From NCBI GenBank assembly GCA_947259175.1, contig CAMYKW010000006.1, positions 1 through 64,000 on the forward strand: DNA of 64,000 bases, in the 5' to 3' direction. A program made the position numbers and the translations under genes. The DNA comes from an uncultured Gammaproteobacteria bacterium. Its GTDB lineage: Bacteria > Pseudomonadota > Gammaproteobacteria > Arenicellales > JAANXG01. Below, in pieces: positions 16,399-25,604 of the stretch; positions within the stretch are counted from its first letter, which is position 1; every line of letters begins with the position of its first letter. Under the pieces are notes generated by a model that saw nothing but the letters and a program-made list of their open reading frames with translations, was not told the origin of the DNA and did not search any database.

Positions 16399-17370
16399 CT
16401 ACATGCGCAGCAGGACCGAACCCCAGGTGAAACCGCCGCCGAAACCTTCCATGATAATGGTGTCACCCGGCACGATGCGGCCGGAACGTACCGCTTCGTC
16501 GAATGCCAGGGGAATCGACGCGGCGGATGTATTGCCGTGTCGTTCGACGGTCACACTCACATTATCCTTGATTAGATTGAGCTTTCTCGCCGTGGCGGCG
16601 ATGATGCGGATGTTCGCTTGATGCGGCACCAGCCAGTCAATGTCCGACTTGTCGAGCCGGTTGGCGGCGAGGGTTTCGTCCACCACGTCTCCCATGCACT
16701 TTACCGCGAACTTGAACACCTCGCTGCCTTGCATCTGGGTGTAGGCTTCGCCCCTCAGAACCTGTTTGTAATTTATCGACACCCCCATGGGAACGGCCAA
16801 CAGTTCATGGTAGCGACCATCGGCGTGCAGATGTGTCGACACCACACCGGGCTGTTCCGCGGCCTGCAACACCACCGCCCCGGCGCCGTCGCCAAACAGC
16901 ACACAGGTCTCGCGATCGGTCCAGTCTATAATGCGGGAAAATGTCTCGGCGCCGATCACCAGCGCCTGTCCGGCGCCACCGGATTGAATGAATTTGTTCG
17001 CCAGGTCCATGGCGTAAACGAATCCGGCACAAACTGCTTGCACGTCAAATGCCGGGCCACCGTTATGAATCCCCAAACGGTCCTGCAGCAGACACGCCAC
17101 ACTGGGAAACACCTGATCAGCCGTTGTGGTCGCCACCACCACCAAGTCGATGTCTTCCGGTTGCAGACCGGCGCTCTCCAGGGCGCGACGCGCCGCGTGT
17201 TCCGCCAGATCGCTGGTGCGTTCGTCATCGGCGGCGATGTGCCGTTCGCGAATGCCGGTGCGCGAGAAAATCCACTCGTCAGAGGTATCCACCATGCGCT
17301 CGAGTTCGCCGTTGGTGAGCGTCTTTTCAGGTAGATAACTGCCGGTGCCGATGATTTTGGCGTACGTCAC
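16399..17370 (-). CDS. fabH: beta-ketoacyl-ACP synthase III
   Basis: A 323-residue condensing enzyme that starts fatty acid synthesis from acetyl-CoA and malonyl-ACP. The nucleophile C114 lies in [12 protein letters not shown]; the histidine and asparagine of the triad lie in VPHQANIRI and [12 protein letters not shown]. The C-terminus [10 protein letters not shown] is standard. It starts with GTG overlapping the plsX stop (GTGA), so the two are translationally coupled. Length and residues are complete. Confidence 0.96.
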
Positions 17371-18386
17371 CGGTCCGCCGCCTGCATCATATCGGTCAGT
17401 TCTTCACGGATGTGTACAGGCACTTTGTTCTTCACTTCGGTGAATGCCTCCAGTATCGCATGGCGGAACGCCAAAGTGTCGGCGCTTCCATGGCTTTTTA
17501 TCACCGTACTACGCAGTCCAACCAGGGTGGCGCCGTTATAGCGACGGTGATCCACACGTTTGCGCAAAGATTTCATCACCGGTAAGGAAATCAGTCCAGC
17601 CAACCGCGTCAGTAAGTTGCGCCCGTATTCCTCGCGCGTGAAATGAGAAATCATTTGCGCCAAGCCTTCGCTGGTTTTCAGCGCAACATTGCCATCGAAG
17701 CCGTCACAGACGATGACGTCGACATCCCCGGTGTAAATCGCGTCGCCTTCCACGAAGCCCTGATAGTTCAAACTGCTGTTGCGCATGAGTTCCGCCGCTC
17801 TTTTGACGATATCGTTGCCCTTGATGTCCTCAACGCCGATGTTCAGCAGCCCGATGCGCGGATTGGGTTTGTTCTCCACGTACTTCACCAGAATGGACCC
17901 CATCACCGCGAACTGCAGCAACAGCTCAGGGGGGCTGTCCACGTTTGCTCCCAGGTCCAGCATATGTATGTGCCCGCGCAGTGACGGCATGGCGCTCACG
18001 ATGGCCGGGCGATCAATGCCGGGGAGCGTCTTCAGCACGAAACGGGCGGTGGCCATGAGCGCGCCGGTGTTGCCGGCGCTGACGCAGGCATCCGCGTCAC
18101 CGCTCTTCACCAGGTTGATGGCGATCCGCATGGAGGAGTCCTTCTTGGAGCGCAACGCCTGAGCCGGCAGCTCGTCCATGCCGACGATCTGGGTCGCATT
18201 CACCAGCCTCACTCGATCCTGCGCCGGATTTCCCAGCGTGTTGAGTTGCGCTTGTACCTCCCGATCCCGGCCTACAAGTATGAGATCAAGGTCGGACTCC
18301 CGTTGTAATGCGGTCAACGCAGCAGGTACGGTCACCTCGGGACCGTGGTCCCCGCCCATCGCGTCGACTGCAACGGTTACCGTCAA
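17367..18386 (-). CDS. plsX: phosphate acyltransferase PlsX
   Basis: A 339-residue enzyme that makes acyl-phosphate from acyl-ACP for phospholipid synthesis. It starts [20 protein letters not shown] and contains [22 protein letters not shown] and [16 protein letters not shown], all hallmark blocks. Complete length. It lies 60 bases after rpmF and overlaps fabH by four bases, the standard rpmF-plsX-fabH order. Confidence 0.96.
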
Positions 18387-18747: not shown

Positions 18748-21700
18748 CTACTGGAAATCCCGTGATTGTGTTTGCAGTCGCCCCAGCCAGGGGGTGAGAT
18801 CCCGCAGGTGCCCGGCGATTAAATGCAGCACACCGTCTTCCTGCTGGACCGCACCGGTCACGGCCAACAGCCGCGACTTTAGCAGGGGCCGGCGTTGCGC
18901 CTCAATCACACGTGGCCACACCACAACATTCACATGGCCGGTTTCGTCTTCCAGGGTCAGGAAAATGACCCCGGAAGCGGAACCGGGGCGCTGGCGGCAG
19001 ATGACCAAGCCGGCGGCGGTCGCGGTGCTGCCGTTTGCCAGTTGCCGGAATTCGTCGGCCCGGCATATGCCGTGCACGGAGAGTTGTGGACGCAACAGCG
19101 CCACGGGATGGCGCCCCAGGGTCAAGCCCACGCTGGCATAATCGGCAACGATATCCTCGCCCTCCCGGGGTCGGCGCAACAACGGCTCCCCTTCCGCGCA
19201 TTGCAGGTGCGGCAGTAGCGGGGTCGGCGGTGCCACGCCGTTGATCTGCCAAAAGGCGCGATACCGGTGTCCTGCGAGCCCCTCCAGGGCGCCGGCGGCA
19301 GCCAGGCTGTCCAGGTCCCGGCTATCCAAACCGGCGCGAACCTTGAGGTCCTCAAGGCCGCGCGTCGAGCCCCGCTCCCGGGCCGCCAGCAACCGGGCGA
19401 TGCCGGTGCGTGACAATCCCTTGACCATGCGCAGACCCAGCCGCAGCGCCGGTTGTTCAGGGCCGGTCGGCGGCTCCAGAGTGCAGTCTTCGCTGCTGTA
19501 GCGTATATCCACCGGCCGTACCTGCACTCCATGGCGGCGCGCATCCTGAACCAGCTGTGCCGGGGCGTAAAACCCCATGGGCTGGCTATTGAGCAAGGCA
19601 CAAGTGAACGCCGCCGGGTGATAATGTTTCAGCCACGAGGAGACATAGGCCAGCAATGCAAAACTGGCGGAGTGAGACTCGGGAAAACCGTATTCGCCAA
19701 ATCCCTCGATTTGCCGGCAGATTTGCCTGGCAAACTGCGCCGTGTAGCCGCGCTCGCGCATGCCCCGCATGAGCTTGTGTTGAAATTTTTCCAATCCGCC
19801 CCGGCGGCGCCAGGCGGCCATGCTGCGGCGCAGCTGGTCGGCCTCGCCGGGCGTAAACCCGGCCGCAATCATGGACAGTTGCATCACCTGTTCCTGGAAG
19901 ATGGGCACACCGAGGGTGCGCTCGAGCACCTTTTTGACCTCCTCGCTGGGATAGACCACCGGTTCCCGGCCGCTGCGCCGCCGCAGATAGGGGTGGACCA
20001 TCTGCCCCTGAATGGGGCCGGGCCGGACAATGGCGATCTCGATGACCAGATCGTAATAGCACCGCGGTTTCAAGCGCGGCAACATCGACATCTGGGCCCG
20101 CGATTCGATTTGGAACACCCCCACGGTGTCGGCGCGTTGCAGCATCCGGTAGACCGCCGGGTCTTCGGCGGGGACGTCCGCCATCGTCCACCGCCGCCCG
20201 CTGCGGTCGGAGATATAACCCAGGGCCTTGCGGATGGCGGTGAGCATGCCCAGGCCGAGGATATCCACCTTCAGCAGCCCCAATGCCTCCAGGTCGTCCT
20301 TCTCCCATTGGATCACCGTGCGTTCCGGCATGGCGGCATTTTCGATCGGCACCAGGTGTGACAATGGCCCGGCAGTGATCACGAAGCCGCCCACGTGCTG
20401 AGACAGGTGCCGCGGGAATCCGATCAGCGCCTCCACCAGGTATCGCAGGCGCCTGATGACGGGGTTGTCGGCCGCCAGGCCCATGGACTCCAGGTGACCG
20501 AAGTCAATGCCACCGCCGTCCCACCATTGAATGGATTTCGCCAATCCATCCACCTGGTGCAGACTCATTCCCAGGGCCTTGCCCGCGTCGCGCACCGCGC
20601 TGCGGGGGCGGTAAGTCACCACCGTGGCGGCCAGGGCGGCCCGATGGCGTCCGTACTTTCCATAAATATACTGGATGACCTGTTCGCGGCGTTCATGCTC
20701 GAAATCGACGTCTATGTCCGGCGGTTCGTTGCGCTCCCGGGAGATAAACCTTTCAAACAGCAGGTTCATTCGTGCGGGATCCACTTCGGTAATGCCCAGG
20801 CAGTAACAAATCGCTGAATTGGCCGCGGACCCGCGGCCTTGGCACAGGATGCCTTGGCTGCGGGCAAACGCCACAATGTCATGCACGGTGAGAAAATAAG
20901 GCTCATAGCGCAGCTCGCGCACCAGTTGCAATTCATGTTCCACCAGCCGGCGAACCTTCGCCGGCGCGCCCTGCGGCCAACGGCGGCGCATGCCCGCCAC
21001 GGTGAGCCGGCGCAGCCAAGAATGGGGGCTACGACCTTGGGGCACCAACTCCTGAGGGTATTCATAGCGCAATTCGTCCAGGGAGAAACGGCACTTTTGG
21101 GCGATCGCCACGGTCTCTGCCAGCAACCCCGGCGGATACAGCTGCGCCAACCGCTGCCGCGGCCGCAGATGGCGCTCGCCGTTGGGATACAAGGCGCCGC
21201 ACAGCTCACGCAGTGGCTTGCGCAGGCGAATCGCGGTCAGGGTGTCCTGCAGCACCCGCCGGCTGCGAATATGCATGTGCACATCGCCGCTGGCGCACAG
21301 CGGGAGACCCAGCCGCCGCCCCAGTGTCTGCAAACGCAGCAATTGTTGCCGGTCATCTCCGGCCAACAACAGTTCCACCGCGATCCAGGTGTGCCCGGGG
21401 AAACAGCGAACGAGCCATTCGCCATCGCGCGGATCCGGCGCCTCAGCGGGAATCCACAGGGCGATACAGCCCTCGGGCAGGTCGCGCTCCAGTTGTTGCC
21501 GCGTCAGGCGATACCCGCCCTTCTCCGCCGTCTGACGCGCCGCGGTGATCAGATGCGCCAACCTCCCATAGCTGGCGCGGTCGGTGGCCAGCAGCACAAA
21601 TTTGAGTCCACCCTCGAGACGAAACTCACTGCCGATAATCAGTTTGAGGCCGGATTCCCGTCCCGCCGGCGTGGCCGCATCCAGCAGGCCCCTGGCCGCC

Positions 21701-21861
21701 AGGTGCGCCTGCACCACACCGGCCAGCGAGCATTCGTCGGTCACCGCCAGTGCGCAATAGCCCAACTCCGCGGCGCGGGCCACCAGTTCCCGGGGTTGCG
21801 AGGCGCCGCGCAAGAAGGTGAAGCTACTCACACAGTGGAGTTCGGCATAGGCAGGCGTCAT
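18748..21861 (-). CDS. dnaE2: error-prone DNA polymerase DnaE2
   Basis: A 1037-residue C-family polymerase used in SOS mutagenesis with ImuA and ImuB. The PHP domain opens the protein (YAELHCVSSFTFLRGAS), the palm carries the catalytic PDIDVDFEHERR, and the thumb, finger and tandem helix-hairpin-helix regions follow (EGFGEYGFPESHSASFALL). A C-terminal OB-fold domain (about 950-1020, GVIFLTLEDETGHVNVVVW) is present. Length is normal for DnaE2 and shorter than replicative DnaE. The ATG matches the family start, and its first base is also the last base of a perfect LexA operator. It is separated from imuB by a prenyltransferase gene. Confidence 0.95.
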   Translation of the reverse strand: MTPAYAELHCVSSFTFLRGASQPRELVARAAELGYCALAVTDECSLAGVVQAHLAARGLLDAATPAGRESGLKLIIGSEFRLEGGLKFVLLATDRASYGRLAHLITAARQTAEKGGYRLTRQQLERDLPEGCIALWIPAEAPDPRDGEWLVRCFPGHTWIAVELLLAGDDRQQLLRLQTLGRRLGLPLCASGDVHMHIRSRRVLQDTLTAIRLRKPLRELCGALYPNGERHLRPRQRLAQLYPPGLLAETVAIAQKCRFSLDELRYEYPQELVPQGRSPHSWLRRLTVAGMRRRWPQGAPAKVRRLVEHELQLVRELRYEPYFLTVHDIVAFARSQGILCQGRGSAANSAICYCLGITEVDPARMNLLFERFISRERNEPPDIDVDFEHERREQVIQYIYGKYGRHRAALAATVVTYRPRSAVRDAGKALGMSLHQVDGLAKSIQWWDGGGIDFGHLESMGLAADNPVIRRLRYLVEALIGFPRHLSQHVGGFVITAGPLSHLVPIENAAMPERTVIQWEKDDLEALGLLKVDILGLGMLTAIRKALGYISDRSGRRWTMADVPAEDPAVYRMLQRADTVGVFQIESRAQMSMLPRLKPRCYYDLVIEIAIVRPGPIQGQMVHPYLRRRSGREPVVYPSEEVKKVLERTLGVPIFQEQVMQLSMIAAGFTPGEADQLRRSMAAWRRRGGLEKFQHKLMRGMRERGYTAQFARQICRQIEGFGEYGFPESHSASFALLAYVSSWLKHYHPAAFTCALLNSQPMGFYAPAQLVQDARRHGVQVRPVDIRYSSEDCTLEPPTGPEQPALRLGLRMVKGLSRTGIARLLAARERGSTRGLEDLKVRAGLDSRDLDSLAAAGALEGLAGHRYRAFWQINGVAPPTPLLPHLQCAEGEPLLRRPREGEDIVADYASVGLTLGRHPVALLRPQLSVHGICRADEFRQLANGSTATAAGLVICRQRPGSASGVIFLTLEDETGHVNVVVWPRVIEAQRRPLLKSRLLAVTGAVQQEDGVLHLIAGHLRDLTPWLGRLQTQSRDFQ

Positions 21862-21880
21862 ACTGTATATATATACAGTA
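21861..21880 (-). promoter_or_regulatory. LexA operator (SOS box) at dnaE2
   Basis: The 20-mer TACTGTATATATATACAGTA is a perfect palindrome matching the gammaproteobacterial LexA consensus (CTG-N10-CAG with an alternating AT core). Its final A is the first base of the dnaE2 ATG, so a bound repressor would cover the start codon. If a -10-like TATATA lies within the operator, transcription would begin at or near the ATG and give a leaderless or nearly leaderless message; that part is inference. Confidence 0.93.
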
Positions 21881-21912
21881 TTTTGTTTGCCGCCGACAGC
21901 CCGGTGTTCAGA

Positions 21913-22848
21913 TCACCGGGTACGTATGGTGGGCTGGAATACCTCGCCGATCAGTGGAATATCAACATACAACAAACTGAGCATGACCACGACGCACAGC
22001 GCCGAATACGCCATGAATCCGGTCTGCCGGTACAACTTTTCGGGATATTGTGTCGGGCTGTCGTCAAGAAAACCGAGGTGGATATACCAGCCGATGAACC
22101 CGGCAATGAACGGTATCGATAACAACAACTCGACCCGGTAGCGTAGCAGGAAGATCCCGAAAAACAGGCCAAACGCCACCGCGTAATAGGTCACACTGAC
22201 CAACAAGCGCTCCTGGTTATAGTGACCGAAGCTGCTGCGGTAACGCACCGCGAGCTGCGGATCATCGAGCCGGCGGTATTCTGCAAAGCGTTTTACCGCC
22301 ATGAAGAACGCCCCGATCATCCAGTAAGCGGCCACCAGGGACACCGGTGGAATCACATTCATGCCCGCTGCATACCAACCCAGCAACAGGCGTAAAGGGT
22401 TATTCACCGATTCCGTCAACACATCCAGGTAAGGTTTGTCTTTGCAACGCACCGGTGGAATGTTGTACACGCACCCCATGATCCACAGTGCGGCGGCCGA
22501 CAGGAAGAACGCGCGGCCGATCGACCAAGACAGCGCCAATCCCAGAATCGCCAGCGCGATCCACAGCCCATAAGCCAGCTTGATGTTGACTTGGCCGGAC
22601 GGCACCGGACGATTTTTTTTCACCGGATGCAAGGCATCCCGGGGGGCATCGAGAACTTCATTGAGGACATAATTGCTGGAAGCGACAAAGCCGCCGGCGA
22701 GTAATGCCAACAGCACGCGCCACAGCAGTGTCCATTCCCATAATTCGGGCTGTTCGTAAACCGCGATGATGATCCCCGGCAACATGAAGATGTTTTTAAA
22801 CCAGTGATCAAACCTGGCGATTTTTAGATAAGGAATGAGTCCACGCAC
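21913..22848 (-). CDS. UbiA family prenyltransferase (decaprenyl-phosphate phosphoribosyltransferase-like)
   Basis: A 311-residue integral membrane protein with about eight or nine hydrophobic helices. The first acidic motif is N63-E-V-L-D67-A-P-R-D71, followed by HPVKKNRPVPSG; the second is in the KDKPYLDVLTESVNNPLR loop (about 136-152). The HPVKxxRP-type loop is what I recall from decaprenyl-phosphate 5-phosphoribose synthases rather than from UbiA or heme O synthases. Such enzymes transfer a sugar phosphate to a polyprenyl phosphate in envelope assembly. It starts with GTG, has no LexA box, and stands between imuB and dnaE2 on the same strand (70 and 51 bases away). No partner DprE1/E2-like genes are in the window. 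Confidence 0.82.
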   Translation of the reverse strand: MRGLIPYLKIARFDHWFKNIFMLPGIIIAVYEQPELWEWTLLWRVLLALLAGGFVASSNYVLNEVLDAPRDALHPVKKNRPVPSGQVNIKLAYGLWIALAILGLALSWSIGRAFFLSAAALWIMGCVYNIPPVRCKDKPYLDVLTESVNNPLRLLLGWYAAGMNVIPPVSLVAAYWMIGAFFMAVKRFAEYRRLDDPQLAVRYRSSFGHYNQERLLVSVTYYAVAFGLFFGIFLLRYRVELLLSIPFIAGFIGWYIHLGFLDDSPTQYPEKLYRQTGFMAYSALCVVVMLSLLYVDIPLIGEVFQPTIRTR

Positions 22849-22919
22849 GATTTATCAGTGATTCTTGGGCGTTTGCGGCGCGCTATTGTAAACGACTCCT
22901 TGAGACCGTGCAGAAGCGG

Positions 22920-24425
22920 TCAGCCGAATAAGCCGTGTACATACCAGGTGTCGGATTGTTGTTTGAGATCCTGGAAGACCCACAAGCGAACCCCCGCAGG
23001 GTTACTGGCAATGTAGTAATCGCGGCGGCACTCCCGCCCGTCCCACCAACCTGACTCGATGCGCTCCGGACCGCTGTGCAAGGTCAGATATCCGCGGTAC
23101 CACGGGCGCTGGTCACGGCGCGCGAGCCGCTGCGGCGGTGCTAACAGCCACAAGGGCCGTTGTCGTCGTGGTGTGGCGCCGCGGCCCGCCGGCGCCCCGG
23201 ACATCCAGGCATTTTCCGGGCGATGATCGTCCACCGGGGCGATATGTCGAATTGCCTCTGTTCCCAGACGCGCCTCGAGTTCCTCCAGGGCATATTGCCA
23301 GTCCTGCGCCTCGGTCGCGGCATTGCGAAACAAGTCCCGGCAACCGGGGGTGAAGGGGCGAACATCTGTGCAGCGTATCTCCACGCCGGTGACCGGTTCG
23401 GGGAGTGCCGCGCACTGCAGCGCGTGGTCGAATAAGTGTAAAAGATGGCTTGCGTCGCGGACCGGGTGGCGGGTGCCGACATGGATGGGGGTGAACGACG
23501 ATTGCCGATGCAACAAGCGCACGCACACGGTTGCCGTACCGGCGTCGTGGGCGCGCAAAAACCGCCCCAGTTGTTGAAACAGCCCGCTTCCGGCAACCAT
23601 CAGCGTTGCATGTTCTGCGGTGCTTTCCGCTAGCTCTGATTGCGCCCGGAACCTCAGCGGAGGGTGATACTGGGGCCGCGGGTCCGGTCGTTCACCGCGG
23701 ATACGGTCCAGGTATGCAACCAGCTCGGGGCCAAACCGGCGCGCCAAGCCGGCACGAGGCAAGCGCCACAAATCCCGCAAGTTGCGTATTCCGGTTTGCT
23801 GCAGACGCCGCAGCAAATTGACCTCGATGCCCAGGCTGGAGAGCGGCAGCTCTCCCAGCGCCGAGGGCAATTGTTCGCGGTCTTCGACTTTGATTTCCCG
23901 CCGGCAACGGGCCAATAGTAGACCCGCCTCCGGCGTCGGTGCGGCTGCCCAGTGGTAAGCATGACCCAGGGGCGCCAGGGTCGCGCGCAGGGCGTCCTGG
24001 ATACCCGCAAACCCGCCGAATAATTTCAGGCTGCCGCGCACCTCGAGTACGATGGCGTCCGGCGGCGCCAGGCTCACGGTAGGGGTAAGCCGGCAGCATC
24101 TTTCCGCCGCTCGCTGCAGGGCTCTCAGCTCCCGGCGCGTATCCCGCGGTAACCTCTGCAGGGTGCTGCTCAACGCTGCGGCGGCAGTGGCGGACATGCC
24201 GGTCGCGATACCGGCGGCACGGGCGGCTGCGGAAGCGCGGTGTACGGAATTGTCGGCATCGACCACCACCCGCGCCGAGGCGTTCCCGGGCGTATGGATG
24301 TCCAGGGCCAGCTGAGGGAATCGGATGCACAACCACAGCAGTTGCGGTTCCTGCCGCACGCCTATGAGCGGTGAATCCGTCGGCGCGCCGAGCGCCGCCG
24401 GCGGCCTGCCGGGGTGGGCAGTCAT
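22920..24425 (-). CDS. imuB: Y-family polymerase-like protein ImuB
   Basis: A 501-residue relative of Y-family polymerases that acts as the hub of the ImuA-ImuB-DnaE2 mutasome. The N-terminus (LLWLCIRFPQLALDIH) replaces the catalytic aspartates of active Y polymerases, as expected for ImuB, and the palm/finger region (about 30-260) is followed by a long C-terminal part with the ImuB-specific RRDYYIASNPAGVRLWVFQDL end. A beta-clamp binding motif is expected between domains but was not located with confidence. The ATG overlaps the imuA stop (ATGA). Codon use is GC-rich like its neighbours. Confidence 0.92.
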   Translation of the reverse strand: MTAHPGRPPAALGAPTDSPLIGVRQEPQLLWLCIRFPQLALDIHTPGNASARVVVDADNSVHRASAAARAAGIATGMSATAAAALSSTLQRLPRDTRRELRALQRAAERCCRLTPTVSLAPPDAIVLEVRGSLKLFGGFAGIQDALRATLAPLGHAYHWAAAPTPEAGLLLARCRREIKVEDREQLPSALGELPLSSLGIEVNLLRRLQQTGIRNLRDLWRLPRAGLARRFGPELVAYLDRIRGERPDPRPQYHPPLRFRAQSELAESTAEHATLMVAGSGLFQQLGRFLRAHDAGTATVCVRLLHRQSSFTPIHVGTRHPVRDASHLLHLFDHALQCAALPEPVTGVEIRCTDVRPFTPGCRDLFRNAATEAQDWQYALEELEARLGTEAIRHIAPVDDHRPENAWMSGAPAGRGATPRRQRPLWLLAPPQRLARRDQRPWYRGYLTLHSGPERIESGWWDGRECRRDYYIASNPAGVRLWVFQDLKQQSDTWYVHGLFG

Positions 24426-25039
24426 GGCCACACCAGCGTCACCGCCGGCAGTTGGCCGCCACCGCGGGCCTTGAGGACTTCGATGGCCAAGCCGTTTTCA
24501 GCGGCATCGAGGCGCAAACTCAGGGCCACCGGCAACGTGTGCCGGCATGGACCGGCATGTTGCCGACGAAACAAGACCCCCAGGCTGTGGCCGCTTTGTG
24601 CCGCCAGCTGCAGGCGGCGCGTGGTACGGGGGGTGGGTTGCCGCGGCCAGGCCATGGCCAGCCCGCATGCGCCGGTACGCAGCAGTCTTTCCATGCTCCA
24701 TAAAGTTTGCTGCGGTTGCGGTGGTTGGACGATCACCACCCCGGCCACGGAGACGCCGGCTTGTGTCAGTGCCGGAGCATAGGGCGTGTAAGGGGGGGCA
24801 ATCCAGACTGCATACTGGTCCTGCTGGGATAAGCGCTGCATGAGTGGCAGGAACAGGCGCAGCTCTCCAATCCCCCAGGCCGGGGTGATGACTTCGATCA
24901 CAGATCCCGCCGGCCAACCCGCTGACGGCAATAGCGCATCGAGGGCGGCGAATCCCGTCGGCAGGCCCGACGGCAAAGGGTCCAGACCGCGCCACAGGCG
25001 GTAGCGGAACCCTCCGGCGGCAGTTGCGATATCGGACAT
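24422..25039 (-). CDS. imuA: ImuA (SulA/RecA-like mutasome protein)
   Basis: A 205-residue protein of the ImuA family, which is related to RecA/SulA and acts in damage-induced mutagenesis. The opening LPSGLPTGFAALDALLPSAGWPAGSVIEVI is the family hallmark; a true Walker A is replaced by TPAWGIGEL, as in many gammaproteobacterial ImuA. Later blocks QYAVWIAPPYTPYAPAL and GLAMAWPRQPTP are also typical. It is the first gene of the imuA-imuB pair and has a LexA box 16 bases upstream of its ATG. Confidence 0.92.
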   Translation of the reverse strand: MSDIATAAGGFRYRLWRGLDPLPSGLPTGFAALDALLPSAGWPAGSVIEVITPAWGIGELRLFLPLMQRLSQQDQYAVWIAPPYTPYAPALTQAGVSVAGVVIVQPPQPQQTLWSMERLLRTGACGLAMAWPRQPTPRTTRRLQLAAQSGHSLGVLFRRQHAGPCRHTLPVALSLRLDAAENGLAIEVLKARGGGQLPAVTLVWP

Positions 25040-25055
25040 GGGCTGATTATTTATA

Positions 25056-25075
25056 CACTGTTTTTATATCCAGTA
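25056..25075 (-). promoter_or_regulatory. LexA operator (SOS box) at imuA
   Basis: The 16-base core CTGTTTTTATATCCAG (25058-25073) fits CTG-N10-CAG, with the A/T-rich centre of LexA sites and flanking bases ca/ta. It lies 16 bases upstream of the imuA ATG, a normal place for an operator over a promoter. It is less symmetrical than the dnaE2 box, so LexA would probably bind more weakly and imuAB would be derepressed earlier. Confidence 0.88.
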
Positions 25076-25178
25076 TAATGGGTCACGATACAGCCCGCAA
25101 CAAAACTTAAGAAACTACTTTAATTAAATCTATTCTTTTTGATTTTCATAAAGTTAATTTAGTTATTGCAAGCATTTT

Positions 25179-25604
25179 CTAGTTATCGATCGGCCGCTCG
25201 GCCAATAGACGCCGCGCCTGGCCGATCCAGTCCTCCCGTTCGATACGCCCTTTGAACGATAACACCGCGTCGACACGCTCGATGTCACCGGCGTCCAGCG
25301 CCGCCAATTGCGCAAAGCTGACGATCCCCAACGCATCGAGCTTGGCTGCGATGACCGCGCCGACACCCTTGATACGCGTCAGGTCGTCTCGCCGCGCATC
25401 GTGCGGCGGGGCCAGGGGGCGATCGCTGATCGTGCCGCAACCGGCTGTCATTCCGCGATGTGGAGATTGACCGGGCGCCGACGTCGCGTTTTTGACGGCA
25501 GCGGCGTGACTCCCGGCGTCGTTTACCGATCGCATGCGGCACAATAACCAGGCGATGAAGACGCAAACCGCCGCAGTATAGAGAATCGCTCCCAGCCAAT
25601 TCAC
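25179..25604 (-). CDS. membrane-anchored helix-hairpin-helix protein
   Basis: A 141-residue protein with one N-terminal membrane helix (about 4-22, LGAILYTAAVCVFIAWLL), a disordered Ser/Ala/Pro middle and a C-terminal helix-hairpin-helix domain (about 72-137: DDLTRIKGVGAVIAAKLDALGI, then FKGRIEREDWIGQARRLL). The same domain is often found at the end of NuoE-like or predicted flap-endonuclease-like proteins; here it is on its own. It starts 41 bases after fadJ and may share its transcript. Function unknown. Confidence 0.75.
   Translation of the reverse strand: MNWLGAILYTAAVCVFIAWLLCRMRSVNDAGSHAAAVKNATSAPGQSPHRGMTAGCGTISDRPLAPPHDARRDDLTRIKGVGAVIAAKLDALGIVSFAQLAALDAGDIERVDAVLSFKGRIEREDWIGQARRLLAERPIDN

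Follow-up and report, generated by a model that had tools for sequence, protein, structure and literature searches.

We examined a stretch of 64,000 nucleotides (nt) from an uncultured Gammaproteobacteria bacterium (hereafter the window), whose minus strand carries the SOS mutagenesis genes imuA, imuB and dnaE2 (imuC). With a probability of about 0.75, these genes form a split mutagenesis cassette: as judged from the sequence, two units with LexA-type operators, imuA-imuB and dnaE2, with an unrelated gene for a UbiA-family membrane transferase (hereafter ubiA) between them (Table 1).

Firstly, we established the content and order of the locus. The window encodes together an ImuA, an ImuB-type Y-family protein and a DnaE2-type polymerase, and predicted LexA operators precede the transcription units, matching the consensus at 20 of 20 positions before dnaE2 and at 16 of 20 before imuA; both are features of an imuABC cassette. 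The uninterrupted three-gene operon, the common form of imuABC, is not found here, as ubiA separates imuB from dnaE2. On the minus strand the order of transcription is imuA, imuB, ubiA, dnaE2, then plsX and fabH, with 71 nt between imuB and ubiA and 51 nt between ubiA and dnaE2. The four cassette genes thus lie on the same strand and where an initial annotation of the window had placed them. The assignment of the second gene to ImuB is based on its position and on its relatives.

Secondly, we carried out the survey of related genomes that the same annotation had proposed as a check. The set comprised 60 genomes, the window's own (G000) included; dnaE2 queries matched 49 of them at E ≤1e-100, a count that includes ordinary dnaE, while imuB homologues were found in 35 (E ≤1e-20) and ubiA homologues in 12 (E ≤1e-15). 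Five genomes of the same genus (G000, G001, G003, G004 and G005) and one of a sister genus (G007) carry the UbiA gene between imuB and dnaE2. Of the six genomes available for the genus, own included, five therefore have the insert; in the sixth, G002, imuB is cut by a contig end and neither dnaE2 nor ubiA gave a match. Because six genomes share the junctions, an assembly chimera is ruled out.

Table 1. Positions of the cassette genes, predicted control elements and conserved flank in the window
Feature	Position	Strand	Basis
imuA	24422-25039	minus	NCBIfam NF033429 ImuA, 191.8 bits (cut-off 150), 9.8e-57
imuB	22920-24431	minus	Pfam IMS 4.6e-6; 10-nt overlap with imuA
UbiA-family membrane transferase gene	21913-22848	minus	Pfam UbiA PF01040, 7.6e-28
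dnaE2 (imuC), error-prone C-family polymerase	18748-21861	minus	NCBIfam NF004225, 1465.7 bits (cut-off 939)
dnaE2 LexA operator (predicted), core CTGTATATATATACAG	21863-21878	minus	perfect CTGT-N8-ACAG
imuA-imuB LexA-like operator (predicted), CTGGATATAAAAACAG	25058-25073	minus	16/20 against TACTGTATATATATACAGTA; 18 nt before imuA
conserved element AGTCGTTTACAATA upstream of ubiA	22884-22897	minus	TACAAT, -10-like; candidate promoter element
plsX, conserved downstream flank	17367-18386	minus	follows dnaE2 in G001, G003, G004, G006, G008, G010 and G011

Predicted LexA operators

The dnaE2 gene has a perfect LexA box of its own, as the initial annotation had stated. The core CTGTATATATATACAG is the only perfect CTGT-N8-ACAG in the window; it sits inside the ubiA-dnaE2 gap, one base from the ATG. 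With its flanks (21861-21880) it matches TACTGTATATATATACAGTA, which we take to be the ideal E. coli LexA site, at all 20 positions, the final base being the A of the dnaE2 ATG. The extended form TACTGT-N8-ACAGTA turned up once when the window was shuffled 300 times (first order), and the 4.18-megabase genome contains it at two places, the dnaE2 operator and a site on contig C42. When one mismatch is allowed, the genome has 5 places and the reversed control 4, which leaves only the perfect sites as conspicuous. Similarly, CTGT-N8-ACAG with one mismatch tolerated gives 15 sites in the window where 13.06 are expected, and near-match boxes alone therefore carry little weight. The site on C42 (G000:C42:34297-34316) lies about 85 nt from the contig end, with no clear gene behind it.

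The genome also encodes, on contig C7, a LexA-type protein with the LexA DNA-binding domain PF01726 and the S24 peptidase domain PF00717, preceded by its own box; the lexA-gene site matches TACTGTATATATATACAGTA at 15 of 20 positions. Before imuA, relatives carry the perfect box CTGTATATAAAAACAG (G003 and G005) or near-matches (CTGAATATAAAATCAG in G007 and CTGTATATAAATACAC in G004), and in G001 the region is cut by a contig end. We rejected the GAAC...GTTC type of LexA motif, which has no perfect site at the cassette and occurs in chance numbers in the window; the one-mismatch scan gave two scattered sites inside dnaE2.

Separate strength and timing of induction had been suggested for dnaE2. 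Its operator does appear the stronger of the two, and with this operator of its own dnaE2 may be induced with separate timing. Upon DNA damage, cleavage of LexA would release the weaker operator, that of imuA, before the consensus operator of dnaE2, and the accessory proteins would thus precede the polymerase. LexA bound before dnaE2 would also stop transcripts that enter from ubiA.

Box presence and separation from imuB

We then compared box presence with gene arrangement on a tree that combined 30 dnaE2 proteins of the near set (own included) with 29 class-wide ones, 59 in total, scoring a box if it lay ≤110 nt from codon 5. None of the 19 dnaE2 loci adjoining imuB has a box, against 33 of the 40 others (31 strict, plus the two degenerate boxes of G017 and G027 added by hand). 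The box label changes 10 times on the tree, compared with 19.6 times in shuffles, and at least 5 changes are forced by well-supported branches. Adjacency to imuB thus largely predicts whether dnaE2 possesses a LexA operator of its own; where the two are separated, unrelated genes are tolerated in the gap. Within the family, G006 has neither insert nor box, with about 105 nt between imuB and dnaE2. The tree is a quick one with 15 open forks and leaves the place of G006 within the family open, so that one gain followed by a loss in G006 and two gains are indistinguishable. In this lineage dnaE2 may have gained (or kept) its box on losing its place next to imuB; from then on, genes in the gap would have been harmless.

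The split layout across Gammaproteobacteria

The initial annotation took imuA-imuB-dnaE2 to form normally one operon, a view that our counts correct for Gammaproteobacteria. Among 369 class-wide genomes, dnaE2 occurs in 105 (107 places, E ≤1e-200) and imuB in 110 (E ≤1e-15), and only 44 of the 107 dnaE2 places adjoin imuB (≤200 nt, same strand). A further 26 lie 0.2-10 kilobases from imuB (window included; four on partial matches), 5 lie farther away on the same contig, 27 lie on other contigs of draft genomes, some of them perhaps near imuB, and 5 are without an ImuB match. We examined 20 of the 26 gaps; outside these remain the partial matches G071, G300, G337 and the second G423 place, G342 with its 233-nt gap, and the window. 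A perfect core box is present in 12 of the 20 gaps, and a UbiA homologue (E ≤1e-3) in none. The open reading frames (ORFs) of the 20 gaps were called mechanically; Pfam scans of two gave a GIY-YIG match in one and no match in the other.

A special status of the insertion is not supported either, since other genes fill the same gap in the sister genus g4 of the same family and elsewhere. In g4, a box also precedes dnaE2 (G008, G010 and G011). The G010 gap holds FAD oxidoreductase, DHDPS-family and proline-racemase-family genes (Pfam) and an ORF without a Pfam match; the G011 gap additionally contains an integrase and an iron alcohol dehydrogenase. Judged by ORF starts only, the gaps of G008 and G012 resemble these, and G012, in which imuB and dnaE2 lie on two contigs, probably has other genes in the gap as well. 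The G011 integrase gene is of phage type (L042:8278-9447), and its presence there indicates that the gap can take up mobile DNA. Elsewhere, G023 has the order lexA-imuA-imuB, then a 296-residue protein without a Pfam match and a box, then dnaE2.

We also drew on a pattern-found set of at least 120 loci, of which 40 of the 120 listed have an imuB match upstream on the same strand. Boxes were read in 80 of the at least 120 loci and in 18 relatives, some genomes occurring twice, and gap genes were viewed in 23 of the 24 loci with an upstream imuB among those 80; L131, in which imuB extends into the box, was excluded. Several Halieaceae and Luminiphilus records have an opposite-strand lipocalin gene in the gap (Pfam for two), an Ectothiorhodospiraceae record has a set of ABC transporter genes together with a hydrolase gene, and a further record has a hemerythrin-like gene below its Pfam cut-off. 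In L144 and L162 (HTCC2080, a Luminiphilus record) a gene of 145 codons, presumably OsmC-like, also lies between imuA and imuB. The layout of the window is therefore ordinary in kind: the SOS mutagenesis cassette is split, the split is conserved, and the gene inside it is a probable passenger.

The UbiA-family gene as a probable passenger

The ubiA product scores above the cut-off of the broad Pfam UbiA model (97.9 over 34.2) but below that of each NCBIfam equivalog it matches (NF008977, 93.7 of 234 bits; NF008978, 72.4 of 207; NF008976, 67.8 of 474). Its nearest named relatives are decaprenyl-phosphate phosphoribosyltransferases, one of which is its best solved relative (PDB 8j8j, 2.5e-9, residues 8-234); it differs from them in failing their curated NCBIfam cut-offs. 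The gene has a G+C content of 0.545, compared with 0.647 for dnaE2, 0.659 for imuB and 0.663 for imuA.

Upstream of the ubiA GTG, the element AGTCGTTTACAATA is kept in all five readable members of the genus and its TACAAT also in G007, hence in six of six genomes; in the four measured, TACAAT ends 36-39 nt from the GTG. An independent ubiA promoter fits these data, because TACAAT is kept in all six although the length of the imuB-ubiA gap, with the stop codon included, ranges between 59 and 232 nt. We conclude that ubiA is most likely a passenger gene with its own promoter. It would be expressed from that promoter, would take no part in mutagenesis and would receive at most some SOS read-through from imuAB. 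The partial read-through into ubiA that the initial annotation had envisaged may occur, given the lack of a terminator-like site between imuB and ubiA, but the conserved TACAAT fits an independent promoter.

Alternatively, ubiA could be a true SOS gene, third in an imuA-imuB-ubiA unit read from the imuA operator, with a product that alters the envelope during the SOS response. Its strand, the 71-nt gap free of terminator-like sites in the window and its position between imuB and dnaE2, kept in two genera, would all suit such a gene. We nevertheless find it unlikely, given the TACAAT present in six of six genomes and the inserts that stretch the imuB gap to 232 nt. In addition, ubiA homologues with 59-66% identity occur on contigs without imuB or dnaE2 (G010, G019 and G023) and in genomes without an imuB match (G015 and G025), and metabolic genes occupy the gap in other family members. 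A general partnership of UbiA with the cassette was likewise rejected: among the 60 genomes it is at the cassette in 6 of the 12 that bear ubiA (own included), it is absent from the 20 class-wide gaps, and among the at least 120 pattern-found loci it is at the cassette only in L234, which is the same contig as G005.

In G005 (L037:3026-4300), three copies of a 27-nt repeat of the TAGCCCGGATATTGCACCAAGGATCCC type, with inverted partners, flank ubiA and enlarge the gaps; it looks like a small mobile repeat.

Observations against two separate units

Several observations weigh against the reading of two LexA-controlled units separated by a passenger. Neither of the two window gaps between imuB, ubiA and dnaE2 has a terminator-like site, so one long imuB-ubiA-dnaE2 transcript is possible. 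In the stretch examined around the recA gene of the genome (G000:C4, around 170899, L290), no LexA-like site retains 7 or 8 of the 8 core bases, and within the 250 nt that precede the recA start just two retain 6; for that reason the SOS circuit of this bacterium may be non-canonical. The imuA box is degenerate in the window's own genome, in G004 and in G007. No convincing -35 precedes the TACAAT of ubiA, and this gene is retained in place across two genera, more than a pure passenger requires; the surrounding locus is conserved too. Finally, 7 of the 40 non-adjoining dnaE2 loci are without a box, and in L131, outside the 59-protein set, imuB adjoins dnaE2 and carries a box-like site at its end.

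The first of these points bears on a model in which imuA-imuB-ubiA-dnaE2 is mainly co-transcribed and the dnaE2 box serves as an internal booster. The two gaps without terminator-like sites would permit it, whereas the ubiA-dnaE2 gap reaches 334 nt in G005, where repeats are inserted, and no Shine-Dalgarno-like sequence precedes dnaE2 to serve a long mRNA (ubiA and fadI likewise have none). LexA bound to the consensus operator would moreover hinder read-through. We consider this model improbable, and two units with their own LexA-type operators remain the preferred explanation.

The dnaE2 start codon at the operator

In all ten box-bearing genomes of this family, an in-frame dnaE2 ATG lies inside the box core (G007), 1 nt past it (G000, G008, G010, G011 and G012) or 4 nt past it (G001, G003, G004 and G005); in G001 it is not the sole candidate, since further in-frame starts lie upstream. 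Comparable closeness is seen in G017 (degenerate box), G032 and G037 (a GTG overlapping the box) and G074. In family f2 the distance from box to start is 17-19 nt. We rejected a general rule that the dnaE2 start abuts the operator: among 29 class-wide loci taken without a spacing filter, ten have perfect core boxes near dnaE2, with the nearest start 1-48 nt past the box, and only one abuts. Among the 120 pattern-found loci listed (of at least 120), an ATG follows the box by 1-4 nt in 17 and begins within it in 3, in a set whose pattern itself limits the box-to-start spacing.

Pairing with the anti-Shine-Dalgarno sequence is predicted at +0.9 kcal/mol before both dnaE2 and imuA, compared with -10.3 for plsX, -9.3 for fadJ and a median of -3.0 over 47 window ORFs (first start). 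The lack of a Shine-Dalgarno sequence is not special to the SOS genes, since fadI (+0.7) and ubiA (-0.7) are without one too. In G003, G004 and G005, a TTG-type -35 is positioned 17 nt before a TATACA in the box, and the mRNA would therefore start at about the A of the ATG; in G000, G001 and G007 the hexamer at the -35 position is poor.

Given this position of the ATG, within the operator or 1-4 nt beyond it in each of the ten box-bearing family genomes, we tentatively propose, with rather less than even confidence, that dnaE2 of this family has a leaderless SOS mRNA and is hardly translated from read-through, a double lock. The promoter, once freed of LexA, would then yield a leaderless or nearly leaderless mRNA. 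Leaderless mRNAs are usual in other groups than this one. If true, the proposal would provide a compact case of a leaderless SOS gene with fused operator and start codon. We found no description of a leaderless dnaE2 in Gammaproteobacteria among titles and abstract openings of the open-licence literature searched. The fusion of operator and start codon is only locally unusual, a local peculiarity of an otherwise common layout.

Relation to known systems

According to PMC3901139, the cassette may form one operon or be spread over different loci; almost every configuration exists, even that of one SOS box per gene, and control is almost exclusively by LexA. Separate SOS boxes for imuAB and dnaE2 are thus already published.

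The split form of Mycobacterium tuberculosis, with imuA'-imuB at one locus and imuC/dnaE2 at another, both LexA-controlled, has the same three functions, a dnaE2 apart from imuAB and a LexA box before each unit; here, unlike there, the two halves have remained close together, on either side of a UbiA-family gene. The system of PMC8072749 also has an extra gene between the Y-family gene and dnaE2. That gene encodes 80 residues, a standalone ImuB-C that probably belongs to the system, and shares an operon with lexA, whereas in our window the insert encodes an unrelated membrane enzyme and dnaE2 is preceded by an operator of its own. A UbiA gene in an imuABC cassette was not described in the titles and abstract openings of the open-licence literature searched.

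Flanking genes

5' of imuA lie a short ORF (25179-25604, minus strand) and then two beta-oxidation genes, fadJ- and fadI-like. The short ORF has no Pfam match and gives partial NCBIfam matches to terminal parts of some NuoE, L21 and phasin proteins; we read its product as a helix-hairpin-helix type protein with a membrane anchor. Similar ORFs occur near imuA in G003, G004, G005 and G008 and, by eye, in G006. The DNA upstream of imuA (25040-25180) is strongly AT-rich, with a G+C content of 0.284 compared with 0.588 window-wide.

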